Shown here in pieces: positions 6,363-33,047 of a stretch of 64,000 nucleotides of DNA; position 1 is the first letter of the stretch; every line of letters starts with the position of its first letter. The DNA is from Vanrija pseudolonga. Its lineage: Eukaryota; Basidiomycota; Tremellomycetes; Trichosporonales; Trichosporonaceae. The DNA lies in NCBI RefSeq assembly GCF_020906515.1, contig NC_085853.1, positions 248,001-312,000 on the forward strand, given 5' to 3'. Position numbers and translations under genes: made by a program. Under the pieces are notes generated by a model. That model saw only the letters and a program-made list of their open reading frames with translations. It searched no databases and had not been told where the DNA came from.

Positions 6363-7518
6363 TCAGCGCTGAAGGAAGCGCAGGCAGTCCTGGCGCCACA
6401 CCTCGAACTCCTCCTTCTCGGCCCTCCACGAAGCCTCTGCAGCGGCATGCTGGACCTTCTCGAGGGCCCACGCCTCCTCCCTCTGCGCACACACGGCCTC
6501 GCGGGCCGCAAACTCGGCGCGCAAGACGTCCATGTCGGACTGAGAGGCGGTCAGCTGCGAGTGAAGGCGAGCACGCTCGTCGCTCCACTGCGCCTGCTCA
6601 ATGGCCCACTGGGCCTTCTCCTCGTCGTGGCCCTTGAGGCGGTCCGCGATGGGCTTGAGGAGGCCCGCGATGTCCGCAGAGAGTGGCCCGGTGCTCGTGA
6701 TCGCCCCAGGAGGTTGCGGACTGGGTGTACGGGGAAGGGGCGCAGGGCTGGGGCTAACTTGTGTCTTGACGCGAGCACGCTTGCTTGGGCGGTGATGGTC
6801 ATCGTGGGCGTCATCGCCGGGGTGGGTGTCCATAACGTGGTCTGGACTGTGCTCGTCCCCCACGGCATCGGTGTGCGCCCTCTCGTTTTCCTCCGCAAGG
6901 CCAGTCTCGTGGTCGCCTTCCTCGAGGGTGACATTGCTCCCACTGGAGGCATTGTTGTCGCCAGTATCGTCCTGGTCGCCCTGTGAACGTGGTGAGCCCA
7001 ACCAACCCACCCGGCCGAGACACTCACCGACACCACCACCTCCTTCGTCTTCTGGTCGACGAAGACCACGGTGTCCCAGTCGACAAACGCGACGTAGGAC
7101 CCACTTATGCGCGTGCTCCCCATGCACCTCACCGAAGAGTACTGGCACGCACTACAGGCCTGGAGGTGGAAGAAGCCACCCGCTTCGGCGACCTTGAGAC
7201 GGTTGATGAGCGACGAGCGGTGGGGGTGCTTGCGGCACAGGGGGCACTTGAGCATGGCGGGGGTTCTTCTCGGTGTGAGCGAGCGCCGCCGGTTGAGACG
7301 GAAGACAGAACATACTGGTACCACAGCTCGTGTTTGCGATTGCCAATCTTGCGCATCGTGCCCGGGTCGCCGGTGATGTGCTCCATGTCGGCATAGGAGA
7401 GGGGCTCGCCCACTGGCAGGTCGGCGAAGAGGAATGGCGTCGTCGGCGGCGTCGACGCGGATGTCGACGTTGTGCCGGGCGCGGGTATGCGCAGCCGTGA
7501 CGAGGCTCTAGTCGCCAT
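6363..7518 (-). CDS. Array paralog 1: PVG motif, Cys domain (one Cys missing), Trp coiled coil
   Basis: Three exons, 7518-7316, 7268-7028 and 6980-6363 (353 aa). Exon 1 ends with FLFADLPVGEPLSYADMEHI. Exon 2 holds CPLC, then KVAEAGGFFHLQACSAC and RCMGSTR, closing with AFVDWDTVVFVDQKTKEVV, which looks like two beta strands. The third of the six family cysteines is replaced (RSSLINRL). Exon 3 begins acidic (GDQDDTGDNN), passes a basic NLS-like SKRARVK and ends in a coiled coil with Trp/Ala/Glu-rich repeats (EKAQWAIEQAQWSDERARL). Introns are 47 nt each; phases are 2 then 0, as in the other array members. No known family is recognised. A nuclear protein that binds metal through Cys and multimerises through the coiled coil is a reasonable inference. 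Confidence 0.75.
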
Positions 7519-8005
7519 GGTCTGTGTGTGAGTGGGGTATAGGATAGGCTGCTGAGGTACCGAGCGAAAAACGGAACGGTGGATGGAGTGGAAGGAGTGA
7601 AAAAAGTTGGGTTGGGGTGTGGTGATTGTGTTGGGGTGCGCCCGCGGTTGCGCCCTCGTCGACCTCACTGTGGCTCTGGTTGACACGAGGCATGGCTGAT
7701 GGCATGAACTAGCAACGGGGGTGCGGATGTGCATGACACCACCTCCTTGTACCACGGCCTGGTAATTGCTTCCTGTCGCTGTGCGACCTAATGTGGCAGC
7801 CCAAAGCATCTGTGGCATGTGGCAGTCATCGGGGCGACCCACTATTCCAGCACCCCATTCACAACGTAAAGCCTTATCCGTAGACACTCGCCTGCTGCAT
7901 GGTGCCGTCTACCGTCGCCTTCCCGGGTGGGTAATCACAACATATAACTACTTTCTGACCCAAGCTATGGACCTATATGATGGTCTCTCAATCGCTCCCG
8001 GGGCT
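7519..8005. other. Intergenic spacer, array paralogs 1-2
   Basis: 487 bp. The 3' part (7530-7550) has a minus-strand TATA-like run (CTATCCTATACC) about 20-35 bp upstream of the paralog 1 ATG. I see no gene and no repeat in the remainder. Confidence 0.5.
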
Positions 8006-9264
8006 CTAAAGGCCATCGAGGGCCCTACGCATCCGCTCCTTGACTTCCTTCTCGTTCTCGAGGGCCTGCTTCGTTTCGGCGTGGGCCGCCTTCTCCTCCT
8101 TGAGGTCCGTGGCAAGCTTCTCCTTCTCACGCTGGCAGTTCTCCAAGTCGGTCTTAAACTTTTTATTCTCCAAACCCCGAGCATTCTTTTCAAGGCTAAG
8201 CTTGCCCTCCAGCTCCGTCTTCTCGGACGCCCACGCAGTCTCCTTAGAGGTGTGGTCGGCGATGAGGCGGTCCTTCTCCTGACCCCATGCAGCGCGTGTA
8301 TCCGTGTGCTGCTTCCGTTCATGGTCAATTCCCTCCTTCTCAGCGGCAATCGTGTTACGTTCGGCGGTGATGCTTTCGCGTTCGGAGGCGATGCTGTCAC
8401 GTTCGGCCAAAACACTGGCACGCTCCTCCGCCCACTGTGTGTGCTCGTTGAGCCTCCGGATGATAGGGAGGACGTCGTTGGGTACTTGGGTGGCTCCAGG
8501 AGCGGCAAGGTCCGACAGGTAGACGGCTCCGGGGACTGGCGAGGTGGGCTGAGTGGTGTCTTCGGCATTGATGCGTGGGCGCTTGGCTGGGGGCTGGGCG
8601 GCATCTGGCCCCTGGTACCCACCCCACCCACTGCGGCGGACAGCGTTGCTACCGCTGCTACCGGGGGCAGGGCTGTTGACGCGCGTGGGAGCGCCGCTGG
8701 GGGTACCGGTGCTCTGGGTGGGCGTCCCGGAGCGGTCGTCTGAGGTAGGTCCAGTGGTGGTGTTGGAGATCGGAGTCTCAAGCTTGTGCTATGCGATGAG
8801 CGCTGTCACAAACGACATGTGTGGTGCTTACCCTCGACACCTCCTTCTTGGTATGTTCATCGACAATCAGGACCGTATCCTTGTCACAGAACACGAGAAA
8901 CGTGCTCGTGGCGGTACTGCAGCCAGGACATGCCTCCGACTTATAATAGCACCAGGAACAAGCAGCTAAGCGGAAGAAGCCGCCCCGCTCTGCCACCTGG
9001 AGGGCCCTGATGCGACAGGTGATGTTTTTGAGAGTGCAGGTTGCGCACTCGAGGTGTTTGGGGGTGCTGTGTTATCTCGTCAGTGCTGTACTGCTGGCTC
9101 TCGACTCTTTGTACTGACCGAAACCATACCGTTGCGTCATTTTCGACGAGCTTGCTCCCTTGGCTACCTGTAAAGCGCACCATAGCATCGTACGGAAGAG
9201 GGAACTTGACCGGGTTGAGAGAGAAGAGGTAGGTTCGGAGGCGTGGGTCGCGGCTAGCAGACAT
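8006..9264 (-). CDS. Array paralog 2: PVG-like motif, full six-Cys domain, long coiled coil
   Basis: Three exons, 9264-9119, 9066-8832 and 8782-8006 (385 aa). The first donor is GTCAGT and the phases are 2 then 0. Exon 1 ends YLFSLNPVKFPLPYDAMVRF, a diverged version of the family motif. Exon 2 has all six cysteines: CATC, NITC, an 18-residue spacer RIRALQVAERGGFFRLAA, then CSWC and EACPGC, followed by FLVFCDKDTVLIVDEHTKKE. Exon 3 starts with a Ser/Thr/Pro/Gly-rich linker and an NLS-like AKRPRI, then a long coiled coil from about residue 240 to the end (AERDSIASERESITAERNTI and further Lys/Glu heptads). The coiled coil depends on a frame that starts upstream of the first Met in that frame, so exon 3 is much longer than the open Met-initiated segment. 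Confidence 0.75.
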
Positions 9265-9788
9265 GGCCGTCGTGTCAGTCGCGTAGTTGGTGCTTGGTGA
9301 GAAATTGGAATGAAAATAATGAGGATGTGTGGAGAGAGAAGGAGAGACTGGGACGCGAGTGGGAGTATATAGGGCTGTTGGACGGGTTGGACGGGTTGGT
9401 GAGGGCTGCTCGACAGACTCGATCACCAAGTCACCATTCGCCTCCCTTTCTTTATCGCTAAAATGCTCAACGATCACTGATATTGACATTTTGCTCGTTA
9501 TCCACTGCATCAAATGGGTGTCTAGTTAGCATAAAGAATACGGCAGTAGTGGGCACAATTGCTGTCGCCGGGCACGAAGTAGGCGCTGCCACTTTTGTCC
9601 CGTTGACCAGAATTTTGTCCCAACCGGGTTTCGTCCGAGCCAATTGTGGGTGATGCCACAGCAATGCTCCGCCACGCCCGCCCACGATAAATCATCATTG
9701 GATGCTCTAGCTTCTCATTGTTCGAACTTGGCCTCGGGGCCACACGTGTGCTCTGACTCTTGTGCATGCAACAGTACCAATGTGCATC
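9265..9788. other. Intergenic spacer, array paralogs 2-3
   Basis: 524 bp. A minus-strand TATA box (CTATATACTCCC, 9362-9373) lies about 100 bp upstream of the paralog 2 ATG. The rest shows no gene-like signal. Confidence 0.55.
9364..9372 (-). promoter_or_regulatory. TATA box for array paralog 2
   Basis: TATATACTC on the minus strand, about 100 bp upstream of the ATG at 9264, followed by pyrimidine-rich leader sequence typical of this array's 5' ends. Confidence 0.5.
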
Positions 9789-10829
9789 TCATCCCTCGCG
9801 ACCAAACGCGCCCTGCAGTGTGATCCAAGCACCTCGCACCTGGTTGACCTGCTCTGCCTGTGCCTTGAGCTGCTGGTTCTCAACCTTTAGAGCAGCAAGC
9901 TCTTCCTTCTGGGCCGCCATACCGGCACGCTCGCCCTCCCAAACCACACGCTCCGCCTGGTGGTTGCGATCCATCTCGGCAATGAGCGACAGGAGGCGCT
10001 CATGCTCGGCGGTCCACTCCGCCTTGTCTGCCGTGTGCTGGTTGATGCCCTGCTGGATCATGCGCAGGCCAGAAGCGAAGGGGTCGTCTTTTGCCAGCTC
10101 AGTCTCGCCCTTGATGTCCGAGGTGGCGGGGTGATGTCGCGGCGGGTCGTCGGTGGGGTGGGGCTGCGGCGGGGGGGTGGAGGACTGAGGCTGCCGGTCA
10201 GGGCTGAAGGGCTGGAGGTGGGTTCGTACACGAGCCGCCTCCTCTTGGTGGGAAGGGTGTCGTTGGTGTCGGCGTCGGGGTCGGCGTCGTGGTGGTCGCC
10301 CACCGCTCGGAGAGGAAGGCCGTGGTGGTCGCCTGCGTCGTGGTCGTGGTCGTCGTCCTCGCCCTCGTCCTGCGGAGCATGGTGAGCCCAAGGAAGCCGG
10401 CAAGTCCACTCCACTGCACTTACCATCTTCACAATCTCCTTGGTCTTCTGGTCAACAAGGACCACGGTGTCAAAATCACGAAAGGCGATGAAGACGCCGG
10501 CATTGCGGGTGCTCCCCATGCACCGGATATGACCGCAGTAACAGTTGTGACACCGCTGGCGGTGGAAGTAGCCACCGGCCTGGGCGACCTTGAAGGCCTC
10601 GACGTCGCATGAAGCAAGCTTGTTCACGCGGCACGACGGACACTTGAGGTGGGCAGGTAGGCTACGTATCATCAGTAAATTCTCCAGCACTGGAGCCCAA
10701 CATACGTGTAGCAATCATATGGCTCTCGAGGCTTCCCCACACTCCCAGTGAGACGCTGCATCGTCACCTCATCGAGTTGGTGTCCGACAGGCAGGTCAGC
10801 GGAGAGGTACACCGCCGGCTCGGCTTTCG
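9789..10829 (-). pseudogene. Array paralog 3: six-Cys domain member, no start codon and one frameshift
   Basis: Exon 1 (about 10829-10706) encodes VYLSADLPVGHQLDEVTM, but the frame is closed upstream by a stop and no ATG precedes the motif. Exon 2 (10661 to about 10424) carries CPSC, LASC, the 18-residue spacer DVEAFKVAQAGGYFHRQR, CHNC and IRC, then the strand pair with DTVVLVDQKTKEIV. Exon 3 opens with DEGEDDDHDHDAGDHH and an NLS-like PTKRRRLVYEP. The coiled-coil part (KAEWTAEHERLLSLIAEMDR) is in another frame. The switch falls at a run of seven or eight C (about 10170-10177 on the plus strand). The sequence where the start should be looks like the GCAACATGCC context of paralog 15 with the ATG lost. 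Either a decayed copy or, for the homopolymer only, an assembly error. Confidence 0.6.
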
Positions 10830-11211
10830 CGTTGCCTCAGTAAGGCCGGCGTGGCCGGGGAAGAAGGTGTGTGAAGAAGGTGTGTCGGTGGCAAAGTGCG
10901 CTGACTCACTGCAAGTTGTGAGGAAGGAAGGAGTGAGAGAAGGAGAGAATGTGAGAGAGACGAGAGAAGCCGTTCGCGCCAATTTGCATGCCAAAGGAGG
11001 GCCACGGTCAGTGGGTGGCGACTCGTCTCGAGGCGAAATTGCGCCCGGGCCGCGACGGCGACACGACGCGACAACACGCGGCGCGCGACGCGTCTGGATC
11101 AGCAGATCGGTGCCCCGGAGAGGGCATACAGAGTGAGGGGAACATTGAGACACGGCAATGTCCTCACTTACTGTACATACGCTACAGACATCTGCCACTA
11201 TCTACCACCTA
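10830..11211. other. Spacer upstream of array paralog 3
   Basis: About 380 bp. It contains a pyrimidine-rich minus-strand leader (CTCTCTCACATTCTCTCC) and a possible 5'-UTR intron (GTGAGT near 10910, ACTGAG acceptor near 10832) resembling that of paralog 15. It also has one ACGCGT hexamer (11088-11093). No gene seen. Confidence 0.4.
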
Positions 11212-12476
11212 CTACGAGTCCATCAAACGCTTCACGGCCGCGAACTTGTCCAAATCGGCTTGCATCTTGGCCATCTCCGCCTTGGATTCTGCCGCAGCCG
11301 CCACGTGCCCCGTCTTCTCCCGCTCCCAAGCCTTCTGCTGCGCGAGCAGTGACGCCCGCTCGCGCCCCCACTCCGCTTCACGGGTGGCGAACGACGTGCT
11401 CTTACGCTTCCAGTCCGCCTCGCGCGTCGCGAACGCCTCCCGCTCGTCCTCCCACTCGGCTTCCTTCTCCTCGAACGCCTCACGATCGCGGTCCCACTCC
11501 TTCCGGTCGGCAGCGTACCTCCTCTGGTCGGCCTGCACTGCGGCTGAGTCGGGCCCGAGGCGCGCGCGTTCGGCTACCCAGCGCTTCTTCTCTTCTGCAT
11601 GGGCGTCGAGCTCGTCCTGGATCGCGCGGAGGTGCTCGTGCATCAGCGGGCGCCTGGGTGGCGGAGTCGCACTCGGCTCGGGGCTCGGCTCGCCCTTCAG
11701 CCGACGGAGAGCGCGCGAGTACCGAGGTGGACTGGGGCTGCGATCGCCCTGAGCCATGGTGCGGCGTCTTGACCGGCGCGGCGTGTCGTCCTCGCTGTCG
11801 GGCTCGTCCTTGACGAAGTTCCGGGCCGCCTCGGCGATCTGTGCTGCGGTCGGCTTGACGCGCTTGCGCTTGTCGCGCATGCTGCGCGGGGGGAGCTTGA
11901 TACTCAGCTCGCCGGCGGCATCGGTGCTTTGCTGGGTGGGTTGTGTCAGGGTGGTGGTCAGGGAAGGTGCACGGTCGGTGGCGCCGCGAGCGACTCACCG
12001 TTTGGATCACCGTCAGCGTCGCCTTGTTGACAAACACGACGGTATACGAGTCGATGAAAGCCAGGTAGTACGCTTTGTGAGAGCACTCGCACCCGCACGT
12101 GCCGCAGTAGTGGCAGTTGCCGGGTGGCTCGAAGTACCCACCGACGCGGGCGACGACAAGTGCCTCGACCCAGCACCCCGTGTCGCGAGGGCGGTCGAAG
12201 CAGATCTTGCAGGAGAAGTGGACTGGCGTGCTGGGTGTGGTGTCAGAGGGGTCGAGGGAGGGAAGGCACCTGGGCGGGCGTCCTCAACAGCAGATCGCCG
12301 ACTCACCGAAACTTGTCCACGGGCCTCTTGTTGCCCCGCCGTGTAGGCTTCTCGGCCGTCGCAGTACACCCGATCAACATCATCTCAGCGGACTGGAGGG
12401 CACTGTCGACGGGAAGATTGGCGAAGAGGTATACTGGCCTCGGGGCGATTCGCCTAGGGTTGGGTGGGGGCGGCAT
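11212..12476 (-). CDS. Array paralog 4: Cys domain member with classic 14-residue Trp coiled coil
   Basis: Three exons, 12476-12307, 12230-11999 and 11931-11212 (373 aa), phases 2 then 0. Exon 1 ends YLFANLPVDSALQSAEMMLI. Exon 2 has CKIC, DTGC, a 19-residue spacer beginning WVEALVVARVGGYF, then CHYC and a cluster CGTCGCEC, followed by YYLAFIDSYTVVFVNKATL. Extra cysteines at the end make this the most Cys-rich member. Exon 3 has a basic start (SMRDKRKRVK), an acidic/SR-like linker and a coiled coil built of 14-residue units with Trp near each start (AEWEDEREAFATRE, ADWKRKSTSFATRE, AEWGRERASLLAQQ). It looks intact. Confidence 0.75.
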
Positions 12477-13016: not shown

Positions 13017-13826
13017 TCATCGATTCGTGCGCTCGAGGTTGTGGCGGAGCAAGTCGCGTTCGAGCGCCAAGCGCTTGTTTGCCCTCTTGTACGCCGCCTC
13101 GTTGTCGGCAATGCGGCGGTTCTCGATCTCCATCTCGGCCTTGTCGGCCGCGTCGCGCTCCGCCTGGTTGTTGGCTGCCTGCAAGGCCTCCGCGAGCCGC
13201 CGCCTCTCTTCTTCAGACGCTGCCAGCTCGGCGCGGAGTTCGCGCACAGCGTCGTCATCGCCGCCTTTGACAAGGTTCCAGGCGTGCCAGCCCAGGCGGA
13301 CGATGAGGTGGACCGTGTATCTGAGATTCGTGGGGAAGACGAGCTCGGCGGGTGGTGCAGGTGGTGGTGGTGGTGCCTGTGCTGGTGGTGGAGGGACAGT
13401 GGCCGGGGTGGCTGGTGCTGAGGGTGGTGTGGTGGGAGTCTTGTCGGTGCTGTGAGCACTGCGGTTACTGCTGAGGCTTGTGAGGGAGGATGAGGTTGAG
13501 AGCTCGCGCCGTCGCCGATCGACGTTGACCAGGACGCGGGCGATCGGACGGTGCCCCGCATGGTCGTCTTCCTCGCTGTGCCAATGGACCGGAGCGTCTT
13601 CCTCGTCGCCGTCCATGGCGTCGAAATCCATCTCCTCGTCAGAGTAGTCGGCGTCTGTGGACTCGGCCTCGTCTTCGCGCTCAGGCAACGAGTCATCGTC
13701 GTCGTCGCTGTCGTCATCCGCGGTGCGGCGGGTGCCTCGCGAGGCCGTGGCCGACTTGGCGTGCTCGGAAGGCTGGTATGGATGCGCCGCGCCGCGGCGG
13801 CGCGTGCTGCTCCGCGTTGCGGGCAT
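13017..13826 (-). CDS. Array paralog 5: Cys-less, acidic/disordered with C-terminal coiled coil
   Basis: Single exon, 269 aa. The start MPATRSSTRRRG closely matches the start of paralog 15 (MPATRSLRSRVAK), which links this Cys-less protein to the array family. Residues 30-80 are strongly acidic (DDDSDDDDDSLPERED). Residues 125-165 are Pro/Ala-rich. Then comes a hydrophobic patch FPTNLRYTVHLIVRLGWHAW and a coiled coil of about 85 residues (ELRAELAASEEERRRLAEAL). There is no CxxC and no PVG motif, so the exon 1 and exon 2 modules of the other members are missing. It may be a retained or retro-derived derivative. Function unknown. Confidence 0.65.
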   Translation of the reverse strand: MPATRSSTRRRGAAHPYQPSEHAKSATASRGTRRTADDDSDDDDDSLPEREDEAESTDADYSDEEMDFDAMDGDEEDAPVHWHSEEDDHAGHRPIARVLVNVDRRRRELSTSSSLTSLSSNRSAHSTDKTPTTPPSAPATPATVPPPPAQAPPPPPAPPAELVFPTNLRYTVHLIVRLGWHAWNLVKGGDDDAVRELRAELAASEEERRRLAEALQAANNQAERDAADKAEMEIENRRIADNEAAYKRANKRLALERDLLRHNLERTNR

Positions 13827-14109: not shown

Positions 14110-15156
14110 TCACATCTGATTGTTGGCCTGCACACCACTCACAACCTCCTGCCCCACCCTCTGCTCTCTCTCCAACTCCTCAACAATCGTTTTCCAGTAC
14201 GCCTCGCGTGCGTTCAACTCGGCCTTGGCCTGTCGCGCCTCGGAGGCGCGGAGTGCCGTCTCGCGCGCAAGGTTGGCGTCGGCGGTCGTGCGGAGCGCGC
14301 GTTCTTTGTCTCGTTCGATGGTTCGCCGACGGAGTGTCTCCTCGTGGTGCCTCATCCAGGCATCCATGTTCTCATCCCTGGTATCCACCAACATCTCCTT
14401 TTCGTGGAGTTGCTGTCCCCTCGTCTCGAGCGCCGCTTTCTCAGCCTCCACCTCTGCAGCCTTCGTGGCAAGGAGCTTCTCCCTAGCCTCCACCGCCGCG
14501 GACCACTCGGCGAGGTGCAGCTTCTCCTTCTCCACCACCTCCATATCGGCAGCCAGGCGCCGCTCACGTGCGTCCATTACAGCTGAATTGTCGGCTGCTG
14601 CGCGCTCACGGTCGACCGACCAGCGCCCGATGTCGCTTGTGAACCGGCGGAGGATGGACGACAGGTCTTTAGGCGTGCCCGGGGGAAGGACTAGGATGGG
14701 CATCGATGGTGTTGGGCCGGCATCCTCCTCGGCGAGGTCGGGGTCCGACGGGTTTTGCGGTGGGGTGCTCGTTGCGCTTGAGAGGGAAGACAAGGGGGAA
14801 GGTGACGTCAGGCTTGCCGCTTCAGCGAGCACTGGGAAGCCGTTGCCTTCCCCGACGTCGGTCGGCGCATCAACCTCGCTGTCGTTCTCGTCGTCGGCCT
14901 CATGATCGTGAGGGAAGTCAATCGCGGCGTCGTCCTTCCCGTCATCGTTCATCCAGAACGGGCCGTTCTCCACCTCATCGTTGGGCCAAGTCTCGTCTTC
15001 ACTGTCGGTGAGGTGTTCGAGATCAGCGTAGGTGTTCACGGGGCGGCGTTTGCGTGAGGACGACCGCACGGCGGTCGGGGGCTCGGGTTTCGGCTGGGAG
15101 GCGGTGAGAGGTGACATGGGGTGGCGCGCAGGAGTGCTGGTGCGTATTGGGGGCAT
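14110..15156 (-). CDS. Array paralog 6: Cys-less, acidic region plus long coiled coil
   Basis: Single exon, 348 aa, starting MPPIRTSTPARHPM. After a basic SSSRKRRP stretch the text TYADLEHLTDSEDE recalls SYADMEHITGD of paralog 1, which I take as a relic of the PVG-motif region. Residues 55-110 are acidic, then a Ser/Thr/Pro linker, then about 170 residues of coiled coil (RERRLAADMEVVEKEKLHLA, KAALETRGQQLHEKEMLVDT, EREQRVGQEVV). No Cys pairs. Flanked on both sides by the two other Cys-less members in the same orientation, so the three look like one sub-duplication. Confidence 0.65.
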   Translation of the reverse strand: MPPIRTSTPARHPMSPLTASQPKPEPPTAVRSSSRKRRPVNTYADLEHLTDSEDETWPNDEVENGPFWMNDDGKDDAAIDFPHDHEADDENDSEVDAPTDVGEGNGFPVLAEAASLTSPSPLSSLSSATSTPPQNPSDPDLAEEDAGPTPSMPILVLPPGTPKDLSSILRRFTSDIGRWSVDRERAAADNSAVMDARERRLAADMEVVEKEKLHLAEWSAAVEAREKLLATKAAEVEAEKAALETRGQQLHEKEMLVDTRDENMDAWMRHHEETLRRRTIERDKERALRTTADANLARETALRASEARQAKAELNAREAYWKTIVEELEREQRVGQEVVSGVQANNQM

Positions 15157-15369: not shown

Positions 15370-16296
15370 TCACTCGTCATTCAACGCCACGAGCTCCCTG
15401 GCAGCCTGCCTCGCGTTGGCCCGGTACGCCTCCAGCTCGGCAACCCTAGCCTCCAGCCGCGCCCGATCAGCGTCCCACGCAGCCTTCTCCTCCGCATGCT
15501 TCCTCCGCTCGGCCTCAACGGCGCCATGGCAGTCCTTGTGGGTGGCGATGAAGTCGAGGAGGGAGGGGAGGAACTCGGGCTCGGCGGAGGTGGAAGCGGT
15601 GGCGGCGGTGCGGTTCACCGTGGCCTTGGATCGGGATGTGCGGTTGGATGGCGAGGTCGGGACGTGCCTTTCACCGCGGGTACGATAGTTGGCGCCCAGG
15701 TTCGACGGCGCGTTCGGGTCGGGGTCGACATCGCGCGCGTCGTAGTCTTCCTCGGCGCTGTCTTCCTCCGCCCCGCTCGACACCGCCTCGTCCGACGACT
15801 CGCTTTGGCTCTGCAACTCGTCTTCCTCGTCTGACTCGTCGAGACTGTCCTCGTAGTCCTTGGCGTGGGCCATGAAGCGGCCTTGAAGACGAGGACCACG
15901 GTCGGCGTCGACTCCGAGGGCGTAATCCGGCGTCACCTCGGGGGAAGGCGAGCGGGAGGTGTGGCTGATACGACGGCGGGTTGTGGAAGCACCATTGGTC
16001 TTGGTGGTGGGCTCGTCCTCCTCGTCGCTGAGGAAGAGGTGCAGCAGCAGCTCGGTCGACGATGGACGAGTCTTCGAAGGACGTCGCGAGCCATAAGTGA
16101 TAGGCTTGTTGTTGAGGCGGCGGCCCTGGCTACGCCGCGGGGGAGGGGAGCTTGCCGAGCCCGATGAAGGCGGGGTAGGTAGTGTTGCTGCTGACGACGC
16201 CGCCGCCGGGGCGGCAGCCGCCTGGGCGGGCGGCTTGAGGGGGTTGAAGCGCGACACTGCTCGACGAGTACGTGAGCTGCGACGTGGTGCGGGCAT
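15370..16296 (-). CDS. Array paralog 7: Cys-less, acidic with short coiled coil
   Basis: Single exon, 308 aa, starting MPAPRRSSRTRRAVSRF, similar in pattern to paralogs 5 and 15. It is mostly disordered: Ala/Ser/Pro-rich to residue 55, basic patches (RRSQGRRL, SRRPSKTR), an acidic centre (DSLDESDEEDELQSQSESSD) and a final coiled coil of about 60 residues (EAERRKHAEEKAAWDADRAR). One HKDCHG is the only notable Cys. The final AAWDADRARLEARVAELEAY keeps the Trp-containing unit of the family. Function unknown. Confidence 0.65.
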   Translation of the reverse strand: MPAPRRSSRTRRAVSRFNPLKPPAQAAAAPAAASSAATLPTPPSSGSASSPPPRRSQGRRLNNKPITYGSRRPSKTRPSSTELLLHLFLSDEEDEPTTKTNGASTTRRRISHTSRSPSPEVTPDYALGVDADRGPRLQGRFMAHAKDYEDSLDESDEEDELQSQSESSDEAVSSGAEEDSAEEDYDARDVDPDPNAPSNLGANYRTRGERHVPTSPSNRTSRSKATVNRTAATASTSAEPEFLPSLLDFIATHKDCHGAVEAERRKHAEEKAAWDADRARLEARVAELEAYRANARQAARELVALNDE

Positions 16297-16478: not shown

Positions 16479-17295
16479 TCAAGCAAGCTCGCCACCAGCA
16501 CCACTCCCCTCGCCACCACTCGCCCCGCCAGCCGCCTCACCACCTTCCCGCTCCTCCCGCTCCGCATCGACCCGTCGCTGCTCACGCACGGTCTCGACAT
16601 ACTCGCGCACGGCACGATCGACCCCCGCCATAACGGCATCATACCGCACTTTTGCGGCTGCAAGATCACGGTCCAGTGCGGCGCGCGCGGTGGCGCGGTG
16701 CGCGACTTCCTCGGGCGAGCTGCTCGCCCCTGTGCTCGGCGTGCGGGCGATGAGGTCGCTCGCCAGCTCGATGTCGGTGTCGTCCTCGCTCGTGACCTGG
16801 AGATCAGCACGGCCCGAAGCGCGACTCACGCGGTGAATCGGGTCGCCCTCCCTGTCGACGAGCACGGCGTGCTCCGCGCCCCAGTCCGTGAACGCGACGT
16901 ACACGCCAGTACGGCGCGAGCTGCTCGAGCACTTTGAGCCTAAACGGAAACACTCAAAGCATGCCACGACCTCTAGCACCCCACCGCCGACGGCCCTGAA
17001 GTGCTTGACTTCGCAACTGTGGCTCGACTCGCAGCACTTCTCACACACGAGCTTCGGCGGCGCGCTGCTGTCAGCGCTGAGGTGCGGTGCGGCACACGCA
17101 CGGGTAGTAGACTTCCGACTGGCCGCGGGCGTTCGTCATGGTCCCCTCGCCGCACAGGCGGGTCATTTCACCCTCAGTCAGGTGCTCGCTGCGTCTGTTG
17201 GCGAAGAGGTAGGTCGGAGTCGCAGCGCTGACCGTCGGGGCTGGGACTGGCCCAGATGCCGTTCGCGTTGCGCGCGGCGTGCGGTCCCACGACAT
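16479..17295 (-). CDS. Array paralog 8: short six-Cys member
   Basis: Exon 1 17295-17102 and exon 2 from about 17064 to 16479 (259 aa). A further 33-nt in-frame intron may be removed after HRV (giving 248 aa). Exon 1 ends YLFANRRSEHLTEGEM, keeping the Tyr-Leu-Phe start but losing PVG. The Cys domain is complete: CEKC, SHSC, a 17-residue spacer EVKHFRAVGGGVLEVVA, CFEC, GSKC, then YVAFTDWGAEHAVLVDREG. The coiled coil is short (ARAALDRDLAAAKVRYDAVM to VREQRRVDAEREEREG) and the tail is Gly/Ala-rich. Intron 1 is only about 37 nt, near the lower limit for fungi, so that boundary is tentative. Confidence 0.65.
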
Positions 17296-17629: not shown

Positions 17630-19026
17630 CTAACCCCCGCGGGCCCTCGACATCCCCAGTGCGGCCCTCAAGCCGACAAGCGCCCTCTCCGCGTCCGCGA
17701 GGCGGTCGAACATAGCCGCGCGGTCCTTGACGGCGTTGGCCTCAAGCATGGTAATGTGCCGCTCGTACGACTCCTGCTGGACGCGCCATGCGGCCACGCT
17801 GCTCTGGCTGTCCTTGGCCACCTTCTGCCACTCGCCCACGAGGTGGTTGCGCTCGGCGGCCCACCGTGTCTCATTGGTCGCGAACTGCGCGCGCTCCGCC
17901 TGCCACCCGGCGACGGCCTGCGCGTGCACCTCGCGCTCGTGCGCCAGGCGCGCCTCGTTGACGGCGTACTGTACCCTCTCGCCCGTCCACGCTGCCTCCT
18001 TGCGCGCGTGCTGCTGCACCTCGTGCTTGAGGCCCGCAATGGTCGACTCGTACTGCCTCTGGTGCGTCGCCCACGCTGCCTGCGTGCGCACTTACTGCTC
18101 GAGGTCGTGCCTGAGCGCGGCAATGGTCGACTCGTACTCCTGCTCCTGGGCAGCCCACGCCGCCTCGTTGGCGAGGTGCTGGGTACGCTGAGCCTCCCAA
18201 GCGGCTCGCTCGAGCTCGTGTTCGTGCGTCTTGTTGCTGGTGCTGGTGCTCGCCGTTGGGCTGTTGTTGAAGACGATCTTGCCGTCGACTTGGGACCAGG
18301 CGGGCAGCTTGACGGTGATTGGGGAGAGCGTGGCCTGCACCACCGGGGCCGCCGGGGCCACCGGGGACGCGGGGGTCTCCTTCTCGCCGAAGCCTGAGGG
18401 AGTCACGGGGACGATAGTCTCCTCGGCGTCGTCGGGGTTGGAGTTGCCGTCGTGCTCAACCTCGGGGGGCGGTGGAGCAACCGGCTGAGGCCTCCCCTTC
18501 GCCTTGCGCGTCAGCACTGAACCCGCCGGTCGGGCAACGTACAATGCGCACGAGTGCCTTGCCCTTCCTGTCGAGCACCACCACAGTGTAGGGGTCGGTC
18601 AGGGCGATGAGGTGGTTGTAGGAGCGGGTGCTGGCGGAGCACTTGCGCGGCACGCAGTCGTGGCAGGCGCGGAGGTCGAACAGCCCGCCCTCCTCGGCAA
18701 CCTTGAGCGCCATGATCCAGCACCAGCCACCACCGTCCTTCGTCTCCGGCGCCTCGCGGCACCGCACGCAGGCGAGATGCTCTGGCGCTCTGAGATGAGG
18801 TCAGCTGGTGCACATGAGAGCAGACTCACAGGTACTTGTCCCCGGTGTAGGCTACCGGACCCGTCTTGTACGTCGGCGGCCCGCAGCCTATCGCCATCAT
18901 CTGCTCGGCGTCGAGCTCGGTGCCGACGGGGAGGTCGCTGAACATGTACGTGGTTCTTGAGCTGCCGGCAGCCTCTGCGGCTATGCCGACAGGCGCGTCG
19001 TGGGGGTTTGAATCCTCGATTGCCAT
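17630..19026 (-). pseudogene. Array paralog 9: Cys domain member with an in-frame stop inside the coiled coil
   Basis: Exons 19026-18830, 18789-18543 and 18484 onward; phases 2 then 0. Exon 1 ends YMFSDLPVGTELDAEQMMAI. Exon 2 has CVRC, a 12-residue gap, CWIMALKVAEEGGLFDLRA (18-residue spacer after Cys3), CHDC and RKC, then YTVVVLDRKGKALV. Exon 3 carries Trp repeats (AAWAAQEQEYESTIAALRHD). A TAA at 18092-18094 then interrupts the frame, which stays open for another 154 codons of the same repeat (AAWATHQRQYESTIAGLKHE) to 17630. No splice pair of consistent phase removes the stop. If translated to the stop, the product is about 278 aa. The downstream part ends RALVGLRAALG as in paralogs 10 and 11. 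A recent nonsense change or sequence error is likely. Confidence 0.65.
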
Positions 19027-21946: not shown

Positions 21947-22929
21947 TCACGCCCGCCCCACCCCGACAGCAGCGCGCATCGCCCCCAGGTTCCGGCGCAT
22001 GGAGGCCATGAGCTCGAGGAGCGCGGCGCGGTCCTCTACCTTGTTGTCGAGCAGCGCGTCGGCCTCCCAAGCGTCCTTCTCCTCGGCGTACCGCTGGCGT
22101 TCGTCATCGAGCTCAGCCCGCGCCGTGGCGAGCTCGCGGTCCTTGGCCACTAGGGCAGATCCCACCGCTGCCATGCGGCGGGTGAGCTCGTGGCACTGCT
22201 GTACCAGCTCTGCCTCCCTCGCCTGCCAAGCGGCACGCTCGGCGGCGTGTTCGTCGCCCTCAGCGGCGCTGAGCATGGTGATGTCGCCCGCCGGGCTGTC
22301 GGCGCGGACGTCGAGACCGGCATCAGAGACGGCGGAGGCCTGGGTGGTCTCCTGAGGATCCGCTGCCGTCCTCTCGGCGCTCAGCTCGACCTGGGGCTGC
22401 TGAGGCTGGTTGCTTGCGCTCGCGGCGTCCGACTGGTTCGAGAACTTGGGCGCAGTCAGCGCCCCACCGCTTCACACCAACTCACCGTAACAACAATCTG
22501 ACTGTTCCCCCTGGTGACCGTCACCGCAGTGTTCTCATCAACAAAGGCGAGATAAACAAGCTTGTTTCGAATATCGCCCTCGCACCTCTCGCCCTTGGAT
22601 GTGTAGCCGTGGCAGCTCGTCGTGTTAAAGAAACCGCCGCGCTCGGCAACCTTGAGCCCGGTCATCCAGCACACGCGTTGCTTATCGAGGCATCCAGCGC
22701 AGTACACATGTGGCGGGGCGCTGACCGCAGTGTCAGCTACGTCTCTCCCGCTTCCCAAGGCCGCGAGGACGTACGGGTAGAAGTTCTTGGGTTCCTTTTG
22801 CTTTTTGTATGCCACTTTGAGCTCTGGCGACCCGTAACCGATTGCGGCCATCTGTTCTGCATTGAGAATGGTACCCTTGGGAAGGTCACGGAACATGTAC
22901 GTGGGGGCTTCGGTGGAGCCGATGTCCAT
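21947..22929 (-). CDS. Array paralog 11: compact, apparently intact Cys-domain member
   Basis: Exons 22929-22775, 22720-22486 and 22444-21947 (295 aa); phases 2 then 0. Exon 1 ends YMFRDLPKGTILNAEQMAAI, close to paralog 9. Exon 2 has CAGC, QRVC, spacer WMTGLKVAERGGFFNTTS, then C with Tyr in place of the fifth Cys (SCHGYTSKGERC), then YLAFVDENTAVTVTRG. Exon 3 starts with a Gln/Ala/Ser linker (NQPQQPQVEL) and has a coiled coil AAERAAWQAREAELVQQCHE to RAALLELMASMRRNLGAMRA, ending AVGVGRA. The end matches paralogs 9 and 10, so the three form a subgroup. TATAAAG lies about 75 bp upstream. Confidence 0.75.
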
Positions 22930-23217: not shown

Positions 23218-23856
23218 CTACACCCTCTTGAGCCCTAACACCTCAGTGACGGGCACCAGCCGCCTATCGCTCGTGGCCACGCTCCCCTCCTTGGTCCAGA
23301 GCGGGGGGTAGAAGCTGAAGCTCTTGTCCGCCGTGGCGTTCTTCATGTCGCCCTTCCACGTAGGCCAGCGGAGGCTGGCGTAAAACTGGTTTACCGCGCC
23401 GCTGAGCATCGACGCGACCCACGCGCCGTGCCCGAGCTCGAGGTTCTCCCACTCCAGCGCGTCAGGGGCGAGGTAGTGGATCTTGCCCGGGTTACCGAGC
23501 ACGCCGCCGTCGAGCGCGAAGAACCCGCCGACGACATCGTCGCCGACGAGGATCATGCCTGCCGCCGTGGCGTCCGAAGCGGGGATAGTGAACGACGTGC
23601 CCGGCGGCACCAACTTGCGCGGTAGCTCCGCACTGCCGCCGCCATAGATCCGCAGCCAGTAGTCCACGATCATCCCGCCAGTGGAGTACGCCAGCGTGCC
23701 GAGGAACGAGCCCGTCGTGAATCCCAGCTGTTGGAGGGTGGTGCCGGCGTAGTCGGGCGCAGGGAGGAGGGTGACGGCGCTTGGTGACGCCGCGATCCAC
23801 TCATGTAGCTCGGGGAGCGCGGGGTCGTCGCTTAGCAGCTCGGCGAGGGGGCGCAT
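23218..23856 (-). CDS. DUF2625 family protein, intronless, bacterial-type
   Basis: Single exon, 212 aa, ATG at 23856. The text matches the DUF2625 family along its full length: ALPELHEWIAASPSAVTLLP, TTGSFLGTLAYSTGGMIVDY, ILVGDDVVGGFFALDGGVLG, GKIHYLAPDALEWENLELGH and FYASLRWPTWKGDM, ending SFYPPLWTKEG. DUF2625 proteins are known mainly from bacteria (actinobacteria, proteobacteria); no activity is established. The gene has no intron, although its neighbours all have them, and it sits inside the fungal paralog array in the same orientation. Horizontal gain from bacteria is the natural inference, but a patchily kept fungal family is possible. Confidence 0.85.
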   Translation of the reverse strand: MRPLAELLSDDPALPELHEWIAASPSAVTLLPAPDYAGTTLQQLGFTTGSFLGTLAYSTGGMIVDYWLRIYGGGSAELPRKLVPPGTSFTIPASDATAAGMILVGDDVVGGFFALDGGVLGNPGKIHYLAPDALEWENLELGHGAWVASMLSGAVNQFYASLRWPTWKGDMKNATADKSFSFYPPLWTKEGSVATSDRRLVPVTEVLGLKRV

Positions 23857-24278: not shown

Positions 24279-25857
24279 TTAGCGTTGCTGCGGGCCTGCG
24301 GGGGCTGCCTGGGACCAGGCGACGAAGGCCGCCAGATGCCCGTTTGTCTCCTGTAGCTCCCTGTCACGGCTCGCGATGGTGGCTGTGTACTCTTCCTCCC
24401 TCTGCTTCCACTCGGCCTCCCGTGCCACAAGCTGGTCCGTAGCCTGGACAAGCTCCGATTCCTTGGCGGCCAACTTCTCCGCTGTTGCAGCCAACTCGGC
24501 CTCCTTGGAGATCCGAGCAGCGCGCTCCCTCTCCAGCGCCTCCTCAGTCCTGCGTCGAGCCACCTTCTCTGTCTCCATTGCGTTCCTATGGAAAGCCAGG
24601 AGGACCTTCTTCTTTCTCTTCATTGCGGCGAACCTTAGCAACTCGTGCTTGAGGGCGAGGGTGGTGGTGGTTCTCTGCGAGGACTTCTTCTTCTTCTTCT
24701 TGGTGCGGGTACCGCTGAAGGACGGCATCGGGACCAGCTCAGTAGGCTGGATTGGGAGTGAATCATCGGCCTCGTTGTCCATATCCGAGACTGGCTGGAC
24801 ATGTCAGCTTGCTTCCTCATGTCTATCTCACCGTTCCGCAAGGCTGGAGGGTTGTCCGATCAACCCGCAAAGCATGGCGAAGGGAGGTAAAGGCCACATA
24901 ACAGTCCGTCTCGAGACCCCAATGGTGCTCTCCGTACTTTTGGCAGCGAGAGAGACACGGCTCATCATCCATATAGCCCCCTTTCTCCGCGACTTTGTAT
25001 ACCTCGACCCAGCACTCTTGATTCGAACTGCGGCATTCAGGGCATGCGAAGTGTCTAGGCAGGCTGTACGGGTCAGACACGATTTGACCCACGGATTTGC
25101 GGACTTACAGATACATCTCCACCTCCATACACGTCCCGTCGTCAAGGAGAACGCCCTTCATCTCCGGTCCGCGGCACCCGAGCTCCAGCATCTGGTCGTG
25201 AGATAGGCTTTCGCCGACCTCAGTTGTTGCAAACAGGTAACCGGGTTCCAGGGGTGAGGGGGGCGGCGAAGTTGAGTGCCTCTGCTGAGCTGGAGAGGGG
25301 ATAGGAGAGTTGCTGTGGTCGCTCCCGGAGTCCTCCATCTCAGCATCATCGTCGCCGTCGCTCCCGGAATCGTCAGAGACGATTGTTCCCTCCTCCTCGC
25401 CGACGTTCTCGCCGTTGTCCACCCAGTTAGGATCGGCGGCGTCGTTGTACCTGAATTTGGGCTCGAATTAAGTGTGGGGTTGCAGCCTTACTGCCCTGAG
25501 CCCTAAGTCGGTAATGTTGCTGGTGCTTCCTTGGGCACCGCTGCCGACTTGGTTGGGGGATGGGGATTGGTCCAGGGGCGTGTCTGCGTCGTCCTCGGTG
25601 GTAATGTTGCTGTCGCTCTCTTCCTCGCTGTCACTGTCGTCCTCGAAGGTGGCTGTGGCTGTGTCGTTGCTGGTGCCGTCGTGGGAGTCACCCCAAACGT
25701 CCATGCCCTCACCGTCATCGGAGGGAGGTACGGGGGGCAATGGAGATGTAGGGGGCGACGTGGGAGGACCCAGGGAGGGAGAGGTTCTGGAGGGAACCAG
25801 CGCTGGCGGTGGGGACGGGGAGGGGGTGTACGGAACCAGAGGGCGCGAGGGAGTCAT
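24279..25857 (-). CDS. Array paralog 12: diverged Cys-domain member with long acidic N-terminus
   Basis: Likely exons 25857-25492, 25461-25109, 25054-24832 and 24794-24279 (485 aa). The first intron would be only 30 nt, so translation may instead start at the ATG at 25422. The N-terminus is Pro/Ser-rich and acidic. The family motif is altered to YLFATTEVGESLSHDQMLEL. The Cys domain has CPEC, NQEC, the 18-residue spacer WVEVYKVAEKGGYMDDEP, then C-x3-C and a His pair (CLSRCQKYGEHHW), so the last ligands may be His. The strand segment CYVAFTSLRHALRVDRTT is poorly kept. Exon 4 is Lys-rich (GTRTKKKKKKSS) with a coiled coil (ARRRTEEALERERAARISKE, REAEWKQREEEYTATIASRD). The polylysine is a strong nuclear signal candidate. 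Confidence 0.6.
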
Positions 25858-26321
25858 ACTGTTCGAGCTGATGACTGGTGTGGAGCTGTTGTCAGTATGC
25901 TACGGTGAGCGGTGACTCACGCAGGTACAGTACTGTAGGTCAAGACAACAAACAGGTGATGGTGAGTGGAAGAGAGTTGAATGTCAGGATGTCAGGATGA
26001 GTGTTGTCGGCGCACAACATTGGAAAGGGCGCTCGATGTGTGAGTGTGTGCGTGTTGGCCATCCACTCTCGCACCAGGCGCCCTCCCCCTCTGTCAACCT
26101 CCCTCGCCTGGCACCAGCTACTAGACACCCCAATTAAGCTTGTGTGGATTGCCCTGTAGATGTGGCCTCTTTCCTGCTCTGCCGACGGCGCAACAATTCG
26201 CCTGCTGTCCGACATGTCGTGTCATTTCTGCTCGCCCACGTCAGGCCGCATTACTATGCCGTTCTGCCAGCACAGCGAGAGAAGTGGTGAGCGTATATTG
26301 TATGCATTCTACTTGGCATTT
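25858..26321. other. Spacer, array paralogs 12-13
   Basis: About 460 bp. No gene or family motif. The region around 26040-26060 is TG-rich simple sequence. Confidence 0.45.
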
Positions 26322-27216
26322 TCACGACCTAGACCCACCCGTGGCCACCGTGGGCTCGCCATTGATGACGCGCCGCTTGAACTCGGCGAGCTCGTGCAGC
26401 ACGTGCTGGAACCAGTTGCGCTCGCGGCCCCAAGCGTCGGCGTCCTTCTCCCACTGTGCCTCCTTCTCCTTCCAAGCAGCCTCGGCGGCCAATGAGCCTC
26501 CTTCTCAGCGGTAAGCTGCTCTATCTGGGCCTGCATGTCGGCCAGGCGCTGTTGGAGCGCGGCGGTCGTCTCGTCCGCCCCATCGTCGGCGTCTTCCTCC
26601 TCTGGAACGGGCTCGCGCTGGTGTCAGACACGTCGCCCATAAGACCTACCTGTACCGGCTCGAGTGTGGAGCTGTTCAAAAAAACCGCGGTGTTGGGCCC
26701 AGTGAACGCGACGTACAGCCCCTTGGTAACGGTGCTGACCTCGCACCCGCCGACCTTGGTGCAGCGCTGGCACGCGGTGAGGTTGAAGAGGCCGCCCGCG
26801 GCGGCCACGACCGGCGCTTCGATCCAGCACTGGTCACCACGGCACGCCCTGCAGGCGAGGGATGATGGCACACTGGGGCTCAGCTGGAGGCGAGGAAAGC
26901 CGACTCACTGGTACATCTGGACCAGGCGGTAGGAGCCGTGCTTGCGCGACACCTTCCTCCAGCTGGGGGCGCCGAAGCCTGCCTGCGCCATTTCGGGGGC
27001 GGTGAGGCGGTAACCTACGGGCAGATCGGGGAACATGTAGGCAGTAGAGGAGGAGGGGTTGGGGCCGTCGTCGTCGCGTTGGTCGTCCTCGCCGGGGAGG
27101 GAGGACAGCGGGGACGAGGGTGTCGGAGAGGGGGCGCGCGCTGCAGAGCTGGTGATGGGTGGCGATAGGCGCGGGGAGCGGCGCGCACCGGTGGGCGAGT
27201 GCCTCTGTGCCGGCAT
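26322..27216 (-). pseudogene. Array paralog 13: six-Cys member with one frameshift in the coiled coil
   Basis: Exons 27216-26909, 26872-26650 and 26617 onward; phases 2 then 0. Exon 1 begins MPAQRHSPTGARRSP and ends YMFPDLPVGYRLTAPEMAQA. Exon 2: CRAC, GDQC, 18-residue spacer WIEAPVVAAAGGLFNLTA, CQRC, GGC, then YVAFTGPNTAVFLNSST. Exon 3 begins REPVPEEEDADDGADE and LQQRLADMQAQIEQL. At about 26490 the frame changes by one base, after which the expected AAWKEKEAQWEKDADAWGRE and RNWFQHVLHELAEFKR follow to a stop at 26322. Comparison with paralog 14 shows a one-base loss. In the unshifted frame the protein ends at 26309 after unrelated residues. Confidence 0.65.
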
Positions 27217-28298: not shown

Positions 28299-28322
28299 AA
28301 GATGCCTAAGCTTCATTACGGC

Positions 28323-29210
28323 CTATGCTGAACTACCCGAACCCCCTGCCTCCTCCTTCGCAAGGGCCTGTCGCTTAAACTCGCAAAGCTGATGCAGCAC
28401 GTGCTGGAACCAATTCCGCTCGCGGTCCCACCCCTCTTTCTTCTCCTTCCATTCAGCCTCCTTCTTCTTCCATTCAGCCTCCTTCTCCTTCCACGCAGCC
28501 TCAGCGGCCAACAGGGACTCCTTCCCAGTCAACAGCTGGTCGATCTTGGCCTGCATGTTGTTCAGGCGCTGTTGGACCTCCGATATCTCTTGAGCGTCGT
28601 CATCGGGGTCGGCGTCGGCGTCTTCCTCCTCCGGTACGGGTGAGGGCTGGTGTCAGGATTGATCACAACAGAAACTCACCTGCAGCGGCTCCAAAGACAG
28701 CGTGGGTGAAGCTGTGGTGGAGGGTGCCCGGGGTGCCGAGCTGATATCGAGCGGTGACAGCCGCAACTCCTGGCCAGCCCCGGTACGTGAGTGGATCTGT
28801 TCTGGTATGCTGTCCGCTTGTTCTCTTCTCGATGGAAGAGACTTGCTTGCTGGAGGGGTCTGCGGATAGTTGTAACATTGTGTCTGGAGCGGATGAGGAA
28901 GCTCACCGGGAGACAGAACTAGGCCCAGGGCGTTTGTCGTCTCCGGGGGCGGCGAGAGGTTTTGTTGCTTTTCCACTGGCTCTTCCGTCCGGGCCGTCGC
29001 ATTGGGACCGAGGTTGGGGGCCTTAATGGTGGTCCAGTTCTTGGTACTGAACCTGGCGCCGGTCTGAACCTTGGTGAGAGGGTTGGCGGCCACCGCCTGG
29101 CTCGGGCCACCGGTTGCTCGCTCGACACGCCGTTGAGTCTTGACGCGCTTGGGTGGTGGGGGGTTGGACGACGGGTTTCGTGCGCTGCCAGGGTTTGGTG
29201 AAGGAGCCAT
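28323..29210 (-). CDS. Array paralog 14: Cys-less member sharing its C-terminus with paralog 13
   Basis: Two exons, 29210-28680 and 28646-28323 (284 aa), phase 0. The donor and acceptor sit exactly as in paralog 13 (SLEPLQ|PSPVPEEEDADAD against LEPVQ|REPVPEEEDADDG). Exon 1 is disordered with an NLS-like PPPKRVKTQRRVER and has no PVG or Cys motif. Exon 2 contains LNNMQAKIDQLLTGKESLLA and then Trp at every seventh residue (AAWKEKEAEWKKKEAEWKEK), ending ERNWFQHVLHQLCEFKRQAL. The C-terminal module is therefore a duplicate of that in paralog 13, kept open here while it is shifted there. Function unknown. Confidence 0.7.
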
Positions 29211-31493: not shown

Positions 31494-33047
31494 ATGCCAG
31501 CCACCAGGTCATTGCGCTCACGTGTGGCCAAGTCACCCATGCCCCCCAAGCCGGCGCCGCCGTCCAAGGGCAAGGGCAAGGCGAGCGCTTCCTCATCGGC
31601 GGATCCCTCGACCGCCGGCCCTTCGACCACCCCACCTTCCCCCCCTCTCCCGGCAGCACCCGCCAAACCTGTGCACACGCCGTACATGTTTGCCAACTAC
31701 CCCGTTGGCTATCACCTCACCCCCGACGACATGGCACTTCTCGGATACGGCCCGCCCGAGGAACGCTACACCAAGAAGGGCAAGGTAGGCGACACCCGCC
31801 GTGTCGTCAAGTACACGTGAGTCAACTTCCCTCGCACTCACACACCAACACACACACCGCACCCTTTCCTTCCCTCTCGCACCAACCCTCGAGTCAGCCG
31901 CTGATCATGCATGCCCCACAGCGCACCACCGCATGCTCTATGCAAGCGGTGCCGAATGCGCCCCGGCCCCTGTTGGGTCGAGGCACTCGAGGTTGCAGTT
32001 GAAGGCGGTCGCATGCGCAATGGGACCTGCCACTACTGCTCGCAGAATGGTGCCTGCGAGACGGGCACAAACAACAAGCACTTTTTGTTGGTGTTCCCAG
32101 ACGCGACCACCATGCTGTTCGTCCACCGCAACAGCCTCGAAGTGTACCGCAGCGTGAGTACATAGAAGTGGCGGGGAGTCGAGTGACGCTAACTGGTGCA
32201 GCAACACGTCGACGAGCGCGGACGCATCCACATCACTCAGTTTGGCGAGCCGCCAGCTGCTCCCCTCTCGCGCGCCAAGTCCCCTGCGCCCTCCACGTCC
32301 GCCAAGAAGGGAAAGGGCAAGGAGAAGGCAGAAGTTGCCGACTGGGACCTGGAGTCGGAGGACTGGGCCATGGACCCAGCGGCTGCCAAGGACGGCTCAG
32401 AGGGCGAAGGCTCTGCCCTCAGCGAGTTGACTGAGGAAGACGATGACGGCGTGATGGAGGGAGGTCGCATCGTGTACTACTACGACGGCGACCCGAGCCT
32501 CGTTCATGCCGAGGAGGACCCGTACGGCTCGGACGGGTACGACGAGTACGGCTTCGACCGCGACGGGCTCGACAAGGACGGGTACAACGAAGACGGCTTC
32601 GACAAGGCCGGGTTCGACCGAGACGGCTATGACGCCGAGGGCCACGACCACGAAGGCCGCAGCTCTCCCTCGGTAGCCGGAACTGACGACCACTCCACGG
32701 TCATCAGTGTCGCCCAGCTGAACGGCATCATCGCCAGCCGTGAGCCATCCGTCGAGTACGACGACCCCCTCCTCGAGCTCGCTGCTCTCCGAGCACAGAA
32801 GGAGACGTGGAAGGCCGCGGAGCGCAAGTGGGGCATTTACGATGTCTCGCTGCGTGCCGAGAACCACGACCTCCGCATGCGGCTTACGCGTGCGGATGAG
32901 GCCAACCACACGCTTATCAAGCGTCTTCAGGTCGCCGAGGTGACCAGCCAGAAGCTCTCGCAGCGCGTCAACGAGCTGTCGAAGGAGCTGCACCCGGCGC
33001 CGAACGGGTCGGAGATCGAGGACGAGAGCGAGGAGGAGGGCGAGTAG
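31494..33047 (+). CDS. Array paralog 15: plus-strand six-Cys member with a GYDxxGFD repeat tract
   Basis: Exons 31494-31816, 31922-32153 and 32202-33047 (466 aa); phases 2 then 0, as in the minus-strand members. Start MPATRSLRSRVAKSP. Exon 1 ends YMFANYPVGYHLTPDDMALL. Exon 2: CKRC, PGPC, the 18-residue spacer WVEALEVAVEGGRMRNGT, CHYC, NGAC, then FLLVFPDATTMLFVHRNSLE. Exon 3 has a Ser/Lys linker, an acidic stretch and a tract of five-residue units (GFDRD, GLDKD, GYNED, GFDKA, GFDRD, GYDAE, GHDHE) at about 32527-32660. A coiled coil follows (ALRAQKETWKAAERKWGIYD, KLSQRVNELSKEL) and an acidic tail. The ATG follows a 5'-UTR intron. This is the best-preserved and only plus-strand member. Confidence 0.75.
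32527..32661 (+). repeat. Coding 15-bp/5-residue Asp-Gly repeat tract in paralog 15
   Basis: Degenerate pentapeptides of the form G-[FYLH]-[DN]-x-[DEAY] are repeated about nine times. Alternating Gly-aromatic-Asp and acidic spacers recall calcium-binding or flexible spacer repeats, but no EF-hand loop can be assigned. No other array member has this tract. Confidence 0.75.

Follow-up and report, generated by a model that had tools for sequence, protein, structure and literature searches.

A tandem gene family encoding putative zinc-cluster-like proteins in the yeast Vanrija pseudolonga

The 64,000 nt window studied here, positions 248001 to 312000 of contig C5, chromosome 5, of Vanrija pseudolonga (a genome of 24.9 Mb in nine contigs), contains a row of related genes, eleven of which encode a module of six cysteines on their second exon. 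These eleven, identified by a six-frame scan and manual gene modelling, lie between 7.0 and 32.2 kb of the window. We tentatively favour the reading, as a possible rather than a probable account, that they represent an old tandem family of nuclear, coiled-coil, and probably paired, zinc-cluster-like regulators carrying one composite metal-binding domain. As far as can be judged from sequence searches, a family with this composite domain appears so far to be known only from Vanrija and one metagenome.

Under this reading, the motif of exon 1, [YF][LM]FxDLPVGxxLxxxxMxxIG, and exon 2, with its six cysteines and beta sheet, would together form the metal-binding domain. The commonest arrangement of the cysteines is C-x2-C-x6-C ... 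C-x2-C-x6-C, as in Zn2Cys6 clusters, its halves being set apart by a predicted beta hairpin, KVAxxGGxF. Zinc would hold both cysteine halves together, the loops between Cys 2 and 3 and between Cys 5 and 6 would face the target and differ among the paralogues, the beta sheet would steady the domain, and a C-terminal coil would join two molecules; the most likely working would be sequence-dependent DNA binding or regulation. We infer zinc binding, nuclear location, pairing and DNA contact because of the shared gene architecture and intron 1 phase, the profile match to Zn2Cys6 domains with its controls and the predicted structure, as well as the variable loops set against a conserved insert, the long stretches free of proline and glycine, the basic clusters and the signature of selection on exon 2.

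Complete three-exon models were obtained for K1, K2, K4, K11 and K16 (Table 1), in all five of which the first intron is in phase 2 and the second in phase 0, and K8 was modelled with one intron. In the partial models of K3, K8, K9, K10, K13 and K14 the best in-frame splice pair also gave phase 2 at intron 1, such that this phase is found in all twelve members (six full and six partial models), comprising the eleven of the array and a dispersed copy on contig C3. An open start-to-stop model was sought for ten members, K3 being left out, within narrow intron windows; seven yielded one (K1, K2, K4, K8, K11, K16 and, with a poor donor site, K14), and K9, K10 and K13 did not. Five of the eleven array copies bear signs of damage, in agreement with the tandem expansion and decay proposed in a preliminary description of this locus: K3 has no visible in-frame start and a frame change in exon 3; K9 has an in-frame stop codon in its coil region, inside an 84-base repeat; K10 has a frame change in exon 3, spanned by an intron in the public model; K13 has an in-frame stop codon upstream of the exon 1 motif, so that its start may be a later ATG downstream; and K14 ends in a different frame from O, the partner to which it is similar in DNA. 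Extra introns could lie behind part of these signs. The other six copies (K1, K2, K4, K8, K11 and K16) are open and free of them. Intron 1 of K11 (22721-22774, minus strand) is 54 bases long, in frame and without a stop codon; if retained, it would extend the protein by 18 residues.

The exon 2 sequences of the eleven members align over 90 columns, seven of which are invariant, and a search of the whole genome with exon 2 of K3 recovered all eleven array copies, the ten others having E values of 3.5e-24 to 5.0e-5. The members thus do align with one another, as had been claimed, and the expected number of genes with the module was found; all six cysteines, however, are retained in only eight of them. 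Also as described, the module genes are on the minus strand (K1, K2, K3, K4, K8, K9, K10, K11, K13 and K14) except for the last, K16. The loops between Cys 2 and 3 and between Cys 5 and 6 are most commonly six residues long, each in 7 of 13 family sequences, with ranges of 4-12 and 2-6 respectively, and the spacer between Cys 3 and 4 is 17-19 residues in all 13 (counted from the serine in K1). Cys 2 is directly followed by arginine in 7 of the 11 array members. Variability is concentrated in the loops, on a more conserved scaffold: identity between pairs, counting gaps, amounts to 0.12 for the Cys 2-3 loop, 0.18 across Cys 4-6, 0.30 after Cys 6 and 0.40 for the insert, and the net charge of the Cys 2-3 loop extends from -1 to +3.

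Comparison of the exon 2 coding sequences gave a proportion of nonsynonymous differences (pN) below that of synonymous differences (pS) in 54 of 55 pairs. K1 and K3, the most similar of these, have 55% amino acid identity, with a nonsynonymous divergence (dN) of 0.43 and a synonymous divergence (dS) of 0.89, and dS is 0.81-2.14 in the 12 closest of the 55 pairs; the pairs approach saturation, which makes these dN/dS figures rough. This supports the conclusion that the copies are old and that exon 2 has been under past purifying selection. The group was earlier suggested to be fast evolving, which describes the two very variable loops and not the old, constrained copies as a whole. The sequences suggest a conserved scaffold with loops that are either free to change or diversifying, and fit either alternative equally.

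The predicted structure of exon 2, modelled with a predicted local distance difference test score (pLDDT) of 82.5 and a predicted template modelling score (pTM) of 0.70, has a helix over the first CxxC half, a hairpin in the insert, a short helix after the second CxxC and, beyond it, three strands. In a model of K11, exon 1 is confidently predicted (block means of 95 and 90) beside exon 2 (87-93), and the products of the two exons would appear to pack together. Beyond the domain, the exon 3 frames of the members include stretches of 29-123 residues free of proline and glycine, and a simple pattern identified basic clusters in K1, K2, K4 and K13. Tandem repeats are present in the coil regions of K9 (17987-18166, 84 bases) and K10 (20175-20260, 42 bases), which suggests that the coils may have grown through internal duplication. 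Exon 3 of K16 also contains a repeat (32531-32628, plus strand), rich in aspartate codons and with a period of 15, 30 or 45 bases.

The nearest known arrangement is that of the Gal4-type Zn2Cys6 domain (PF00172), the halves of which are C-x2-C-x6-C and C-x2-C-x6-8-C, with a helix in the CxxC halves. For comparison, 16 Zn2Cys6 domains were extracted from the 21 top-ranking of the genome's 83 PF00172 matches and set against the 13 family sequences. Profile alignment of the two paired all six cysteines, with around 13 extra residues in the family between Cys 3 and 4, and had a local score of 18.7 (P 0.0013). None of 150 versions of the profile with all columns shuffled reached this score (mean 8.9, maximum 17.3), and 2 of 150 did so when only the columns of Cys 3 and Cys 6 were moved (mean 13.1). 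The likeness extends to the commonest spacing within the halves, the helix predicted in the CxxC halves and the presence of coil-like, basic and acidic regions outside the domain. However, the family differs in its added beta sheet and exon 1 segment, in the position of its coil at the far C terminus, in lacking both a PF00172 match and a conserved basic residue at the fourth loop position, and in its Cys 3-4 spacer, which is longer than the 5-12 residues of the PROSITE Zn2Cys6 pattern. These genes are not classed as Zn2Cys6 proteins; they may work like them, through either descent or convergence. GATA fingers (PF00320) resemble the family in having two CxxC pairs with a long spacer between them, but have four cysteines rather than six. 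They were rejected as a model, an hhalign comparison with a profile of five of the genome's six GATA matches scoring 10.8 over only two columns, and PF00320 had no match in the array at E <= 0.001.

Within the reach of the tools used, no described family was found to account for these proteins, as the preliminary description had proposed. Five of the proteins had no Pfam match over the cut-off, the best (E 0.016) being to a coiled-coil model; none of the eleven exon 2 modules had a Pfam match below E 0.1 (best 0.13). The strong match to a single-copy family that was raised as a possible refutation did not appear. A profile search of PDB sequences gave no match, viral structure models provided no clear match in fold, and the literature searches made found nothing on the family. 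WD40-type beta blades, which appeared generically in the fold-search listings, were discounted: there is no repeat and no propeller, the scores are weak and only a common arrangement of strands is shared.

The family nevertheless extends past the array. Ten protein queries against the V. pseudolonga genome, of which eight represented array members and two the dispersed copy, identified the array and a single additional family locus, on contig C3, such counts being lower bounds. This C3 member surfaced weakly (E 0.04 with K11 and 0.05 with K2), and the reverse search from it found only itself and did not recover the array. It has an exon 1 segment, an exon 2 with the spacing C-x2-C-x6-C-x19-C-x2-C-x5-C, an exon 3 that is both basic and acidic, and introns in the two phases seen in the array; its kinship is proposed because of the weak matches to K11 and K2 together with the shared exon design. 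A protein database search with the C3 member returned no relative at the sensitivity of the tool (55 candidates, none scored). Two other weak genomic matches were rejected: one on contig C2 (L047, E 0.08) lies in an ABC-transporter-like region, and one on contig C4 (L060, E 0.18) has no cysteine pattern. A still weaker match was returned at C4:2421110 (E 0.3).

Two profile searches of around 5.8 billion proteins yielded three proteins, although the search depends on shared exact words and scores at most 8000 candidates, such that distant relatives can escape and little weight attaches to a lack of matches elsewhere. Two of the three are V. pseudolonga entries with gene models that look wrong on comparison with the array: P0001 (LOC62_05G006789) is K2 without most of the cysteine exon, and P0002 (LOC62_05G006792) is the N-terminal part of K11 fused to the C-terminal part of K10. 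The third, P0003, is a protein of 200 residues from a metagenome contig, identical to K8 in 107 of 205 aligned columns. In the gene tree, K8 and P0003 form the only starred fork (100/100) and K1, K2 and K3 group at 86/87, with 7 of 10 inner branches left open and a bootstrap that had not yet settled. K8 and P0003 are almost the same in the beta part and in the second half of the insert, while the length of their Cys 2-3 loops differs by two residues. One paralogue has hence been kept in a second lineage, and the K8 lineage probably split from the other copies before the V. pseudolonga and metagenomic lineages parted.

Four genes in the row lack the cysteine module. One of these, the coil-rich end designated O, is clearly related to the family by its sequence, being 70% identical to the end of K14 at the DNA level over 285 columns (E 6e-33). 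This was the strongest of only four rows in a DNA self-comparison of the array at E 1e-4, the others being K1 with K3, an internal repeat of K9, and K9 with K11. The upstream frame adjoining O (28653-29210) is of unproven kinship. Protein comparison of the exon 3 frames at E 1e-3, in which matches are inflated by coil-rich sequence, interlinked K1, K2, K9, K10 and K11, joined K14 with O, and gave a weak match of K6 to the coil of K13 (45% over 60 amino acids, E 4.8e-4). K5 and K7 matched no other member at this threshold; they may still be kin, because divergence in exon 3 is such that four certain members, K3, K4, K8 and K16, likewise had no match. Of the approximately fifteen paralogues originally counted, the row would then comprise eleven with the module, one sure relative without it and at most three unproven (K5, K6 and K7). 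The four relatives supposed to have lost the module are reduced to one clear and one weak case, and widespread domain loss is weakly supported.

Table 1. Members of the family, candidate relatives and the interrupting gene, with positions in the window unless another contig is named.
Feature	Position	Strand	Description
K1	6363..7518	-	Three exons, open GT-AG model; exon 2 at 7025-7264; third Cys replaced by Ser
K2	8006..9264	-	Member, three exons, six Cys; open model
K3	9789..10818	-	Member, probably decayed; exon 2 at 10421-10660
K4	11212..12476	-	Member, three exons, six Cys; open model
K5	13017..13826	-	Coil-rich, MPATRS start, open frame of 269 amino acids, no Cys module; unproven kin
K6	14110..15156	-	Coil-rich, no Cys module; weakly similar to K13 coil
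K7	15370..16296	-	Acidic, coil-rich, MPAPRR start, no Cys module; unproven kin
K8	16479..17295	-	Diverged member, one-intron model; metagenomic orthologue P0003
K9	17630..19026	-	Member; exon 2 at 18540-18788; in-frame TAA at 18092-18094 in coil region
K10	19568..21317	-	Member, six Cys; exon 2 at 20816-21043; frame change or additional intron around 20.1-20.2 kb
K11	21947..22929	-	Member, three exons; fifth Cys replaced by Tyr; intron 1 in frame, stop-free
DUF2625 gene	23218..23856	-	Bacterial-type gene (E 6e-58)
K13	24279..25857	-	Member; exon 2 at 24829-25062; sixth Cys replaced by His; in-frame TAA at 25468-25470
K14	26309..27216	-	Member; exon 2 at 26644-26871; C-terminal frame departs from that of DNA-similar partner O
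O	28323..28652	-	Coil-rich end, no Cys module; DNA-similar to K14 end
K16	31494..33047	+	Member, three exons, six Cys; sole plus-strand member
C3 member	Contig C3, ~2528.5-2529.9 kb (L020:1426-2878)		Dispersed twelfth member; exon design and intron phases as in the array

The row of paralogues, earlier said to make up nearly every gene from 6.4 to 33.0 kb, is interrupted by a bacterial-type DUF2625 gene. When bacterial and archaeal genomes were scanned, four relatives of this gene were returned at 33-38% identity, in two Chitinophaga genomes and in metagenome-assembled genomes of a Saprospiraceae and a Chloroflexi bacterium, and it looks like a horizontal acquisition. A study covering Basidiomycota and Ascomycota (PMC11708051) names V. 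pseudolonga as the yeast with the highest number of horizontally acquired genes among those it covered, at 223, a figure that the presence of the DUF2625 gene within the array would fit.

A number of observations weigh against the proposal that the family consists of zinc-cluster-like regulators. One cysteine is missing from three of the eleven members (K1, K11 and K13), one of which has histidine in its place, and only K2 and K8 of the 13 sequences combine all six cysteines with exact x2/x6 spacing in both halves. None of the 83 PF00172 matches in the genome (E <= 0.001) is located at C5:254-281 kb and none of the eleven modules matches this model; the probability assigned to the local profile alignment is only 18.5%, and alignment in global mode gave 2.4% with a score of 14.9. 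When the cysteine columns were fixed and all others permuted segment by segment, 13 of 100 versions reached the local score (mean 15.6); the resemblance is carried by spacing alone, other residues adding little. The fourth position of the Cys 2-3 loop, lysine or arginine in all 16 Zn2Cys6 domains, is lysine in one of the 13 family sequences. Fold searches with Foldseek and VIA-align, using two models, found no clear match, small domains being easily missed by such searches, and the K11 models spread widely, from 78.1 to 60.2. The C-terminal coil is a prediction from composition, namely the stretches without proline and glycine, and from weak Pfam coil matches. Clusters resembling nuclear localisation signals (NLS), at first described as part of a linker common to the members, were not detected by the simple pattern in the exon 3 frames of K8, K9, K10 and K11. 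Several of these points, namely the rarity of the basic loop residue, the lack of a PF00172 match and the four members without NLS-like clusters, favour an alternative that seems nearly as likely: a zinc-stabilised adaptor binding protein or RNA, in which the cysteine part would be structural, the loops would bind partners, the coil would oligomerise and DNA would not be bound. Such an adaptor would also suit the distribution of conservation, the hairpin insert being the most conserved segment after the first CxxC pair and the cysteine loops the least. It sits less well with the cysteine spacing, which fits Zn2Cys6 more closely than GATA and outscores 148 of 150 spacing-null versions, or with the basic clusters of K1, K2, K4, K13 and the C3 member, which suggest nuclear proteins.

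The two remaining explanations concern the history of the copies. A selfish or defensive family acting in recognition, conflict or drive, with an arms race behind the gain and loss of copies and the variation in the loops, is unlikely, despite being suggested by decaying tandem copies, by loops that vary in length as well as sequence, even between the K8 orthologues, and by restriction to one lineage within the searches made; the copies are old, pN is lower than pS in all but one pair, and the lack of Pfam domains over the cut-off in the five proteins scanned means that no toxin-like or drive-like domain known to Pfam was found in them. The frame changes, in-frame stops or missing starts of five copies could instead indicate a largely defunct relic, the decaying remains of an old expansion with little function left. 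This seems improbable given that six copies are open without damage, the phase of intron 1 is kept in 12 of 12 members, the pN to pS comparison indicates constraint in 54 of 55 pairs, and an orthologue of K8 with the same domain exists in a metagenome.

Animals have lineage-specific arrays of zinc-finger genes, and a fungal counterpart can be envisaged here, although as a speculative scenario of low probability: DNA-reading proteins private to the genus, with a novel composite fold of zinc-cluster-like type, the target-facing loops of which would have diversified in each copy on a selected scaffold, perhaps against transposons or foreign DNA in a genome with many horizontally acquired genes. 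The two database entries retrieved for the array omit or merge gene parts, and this failure of annotation renders the family nearly invisible to comparison at the protein level. Should the regulator reading be true, these genes would define an undescribed domain, in which a short stretch of exon 1 is joined to a hairpin-bearing zinc-cluster-like module, and which has expanded and diversified in one yeast lineage. They would illustrate one route by which a DNA-binding scaffold very common in fungi, or something resembling it, can be rebuilt and multiplied.

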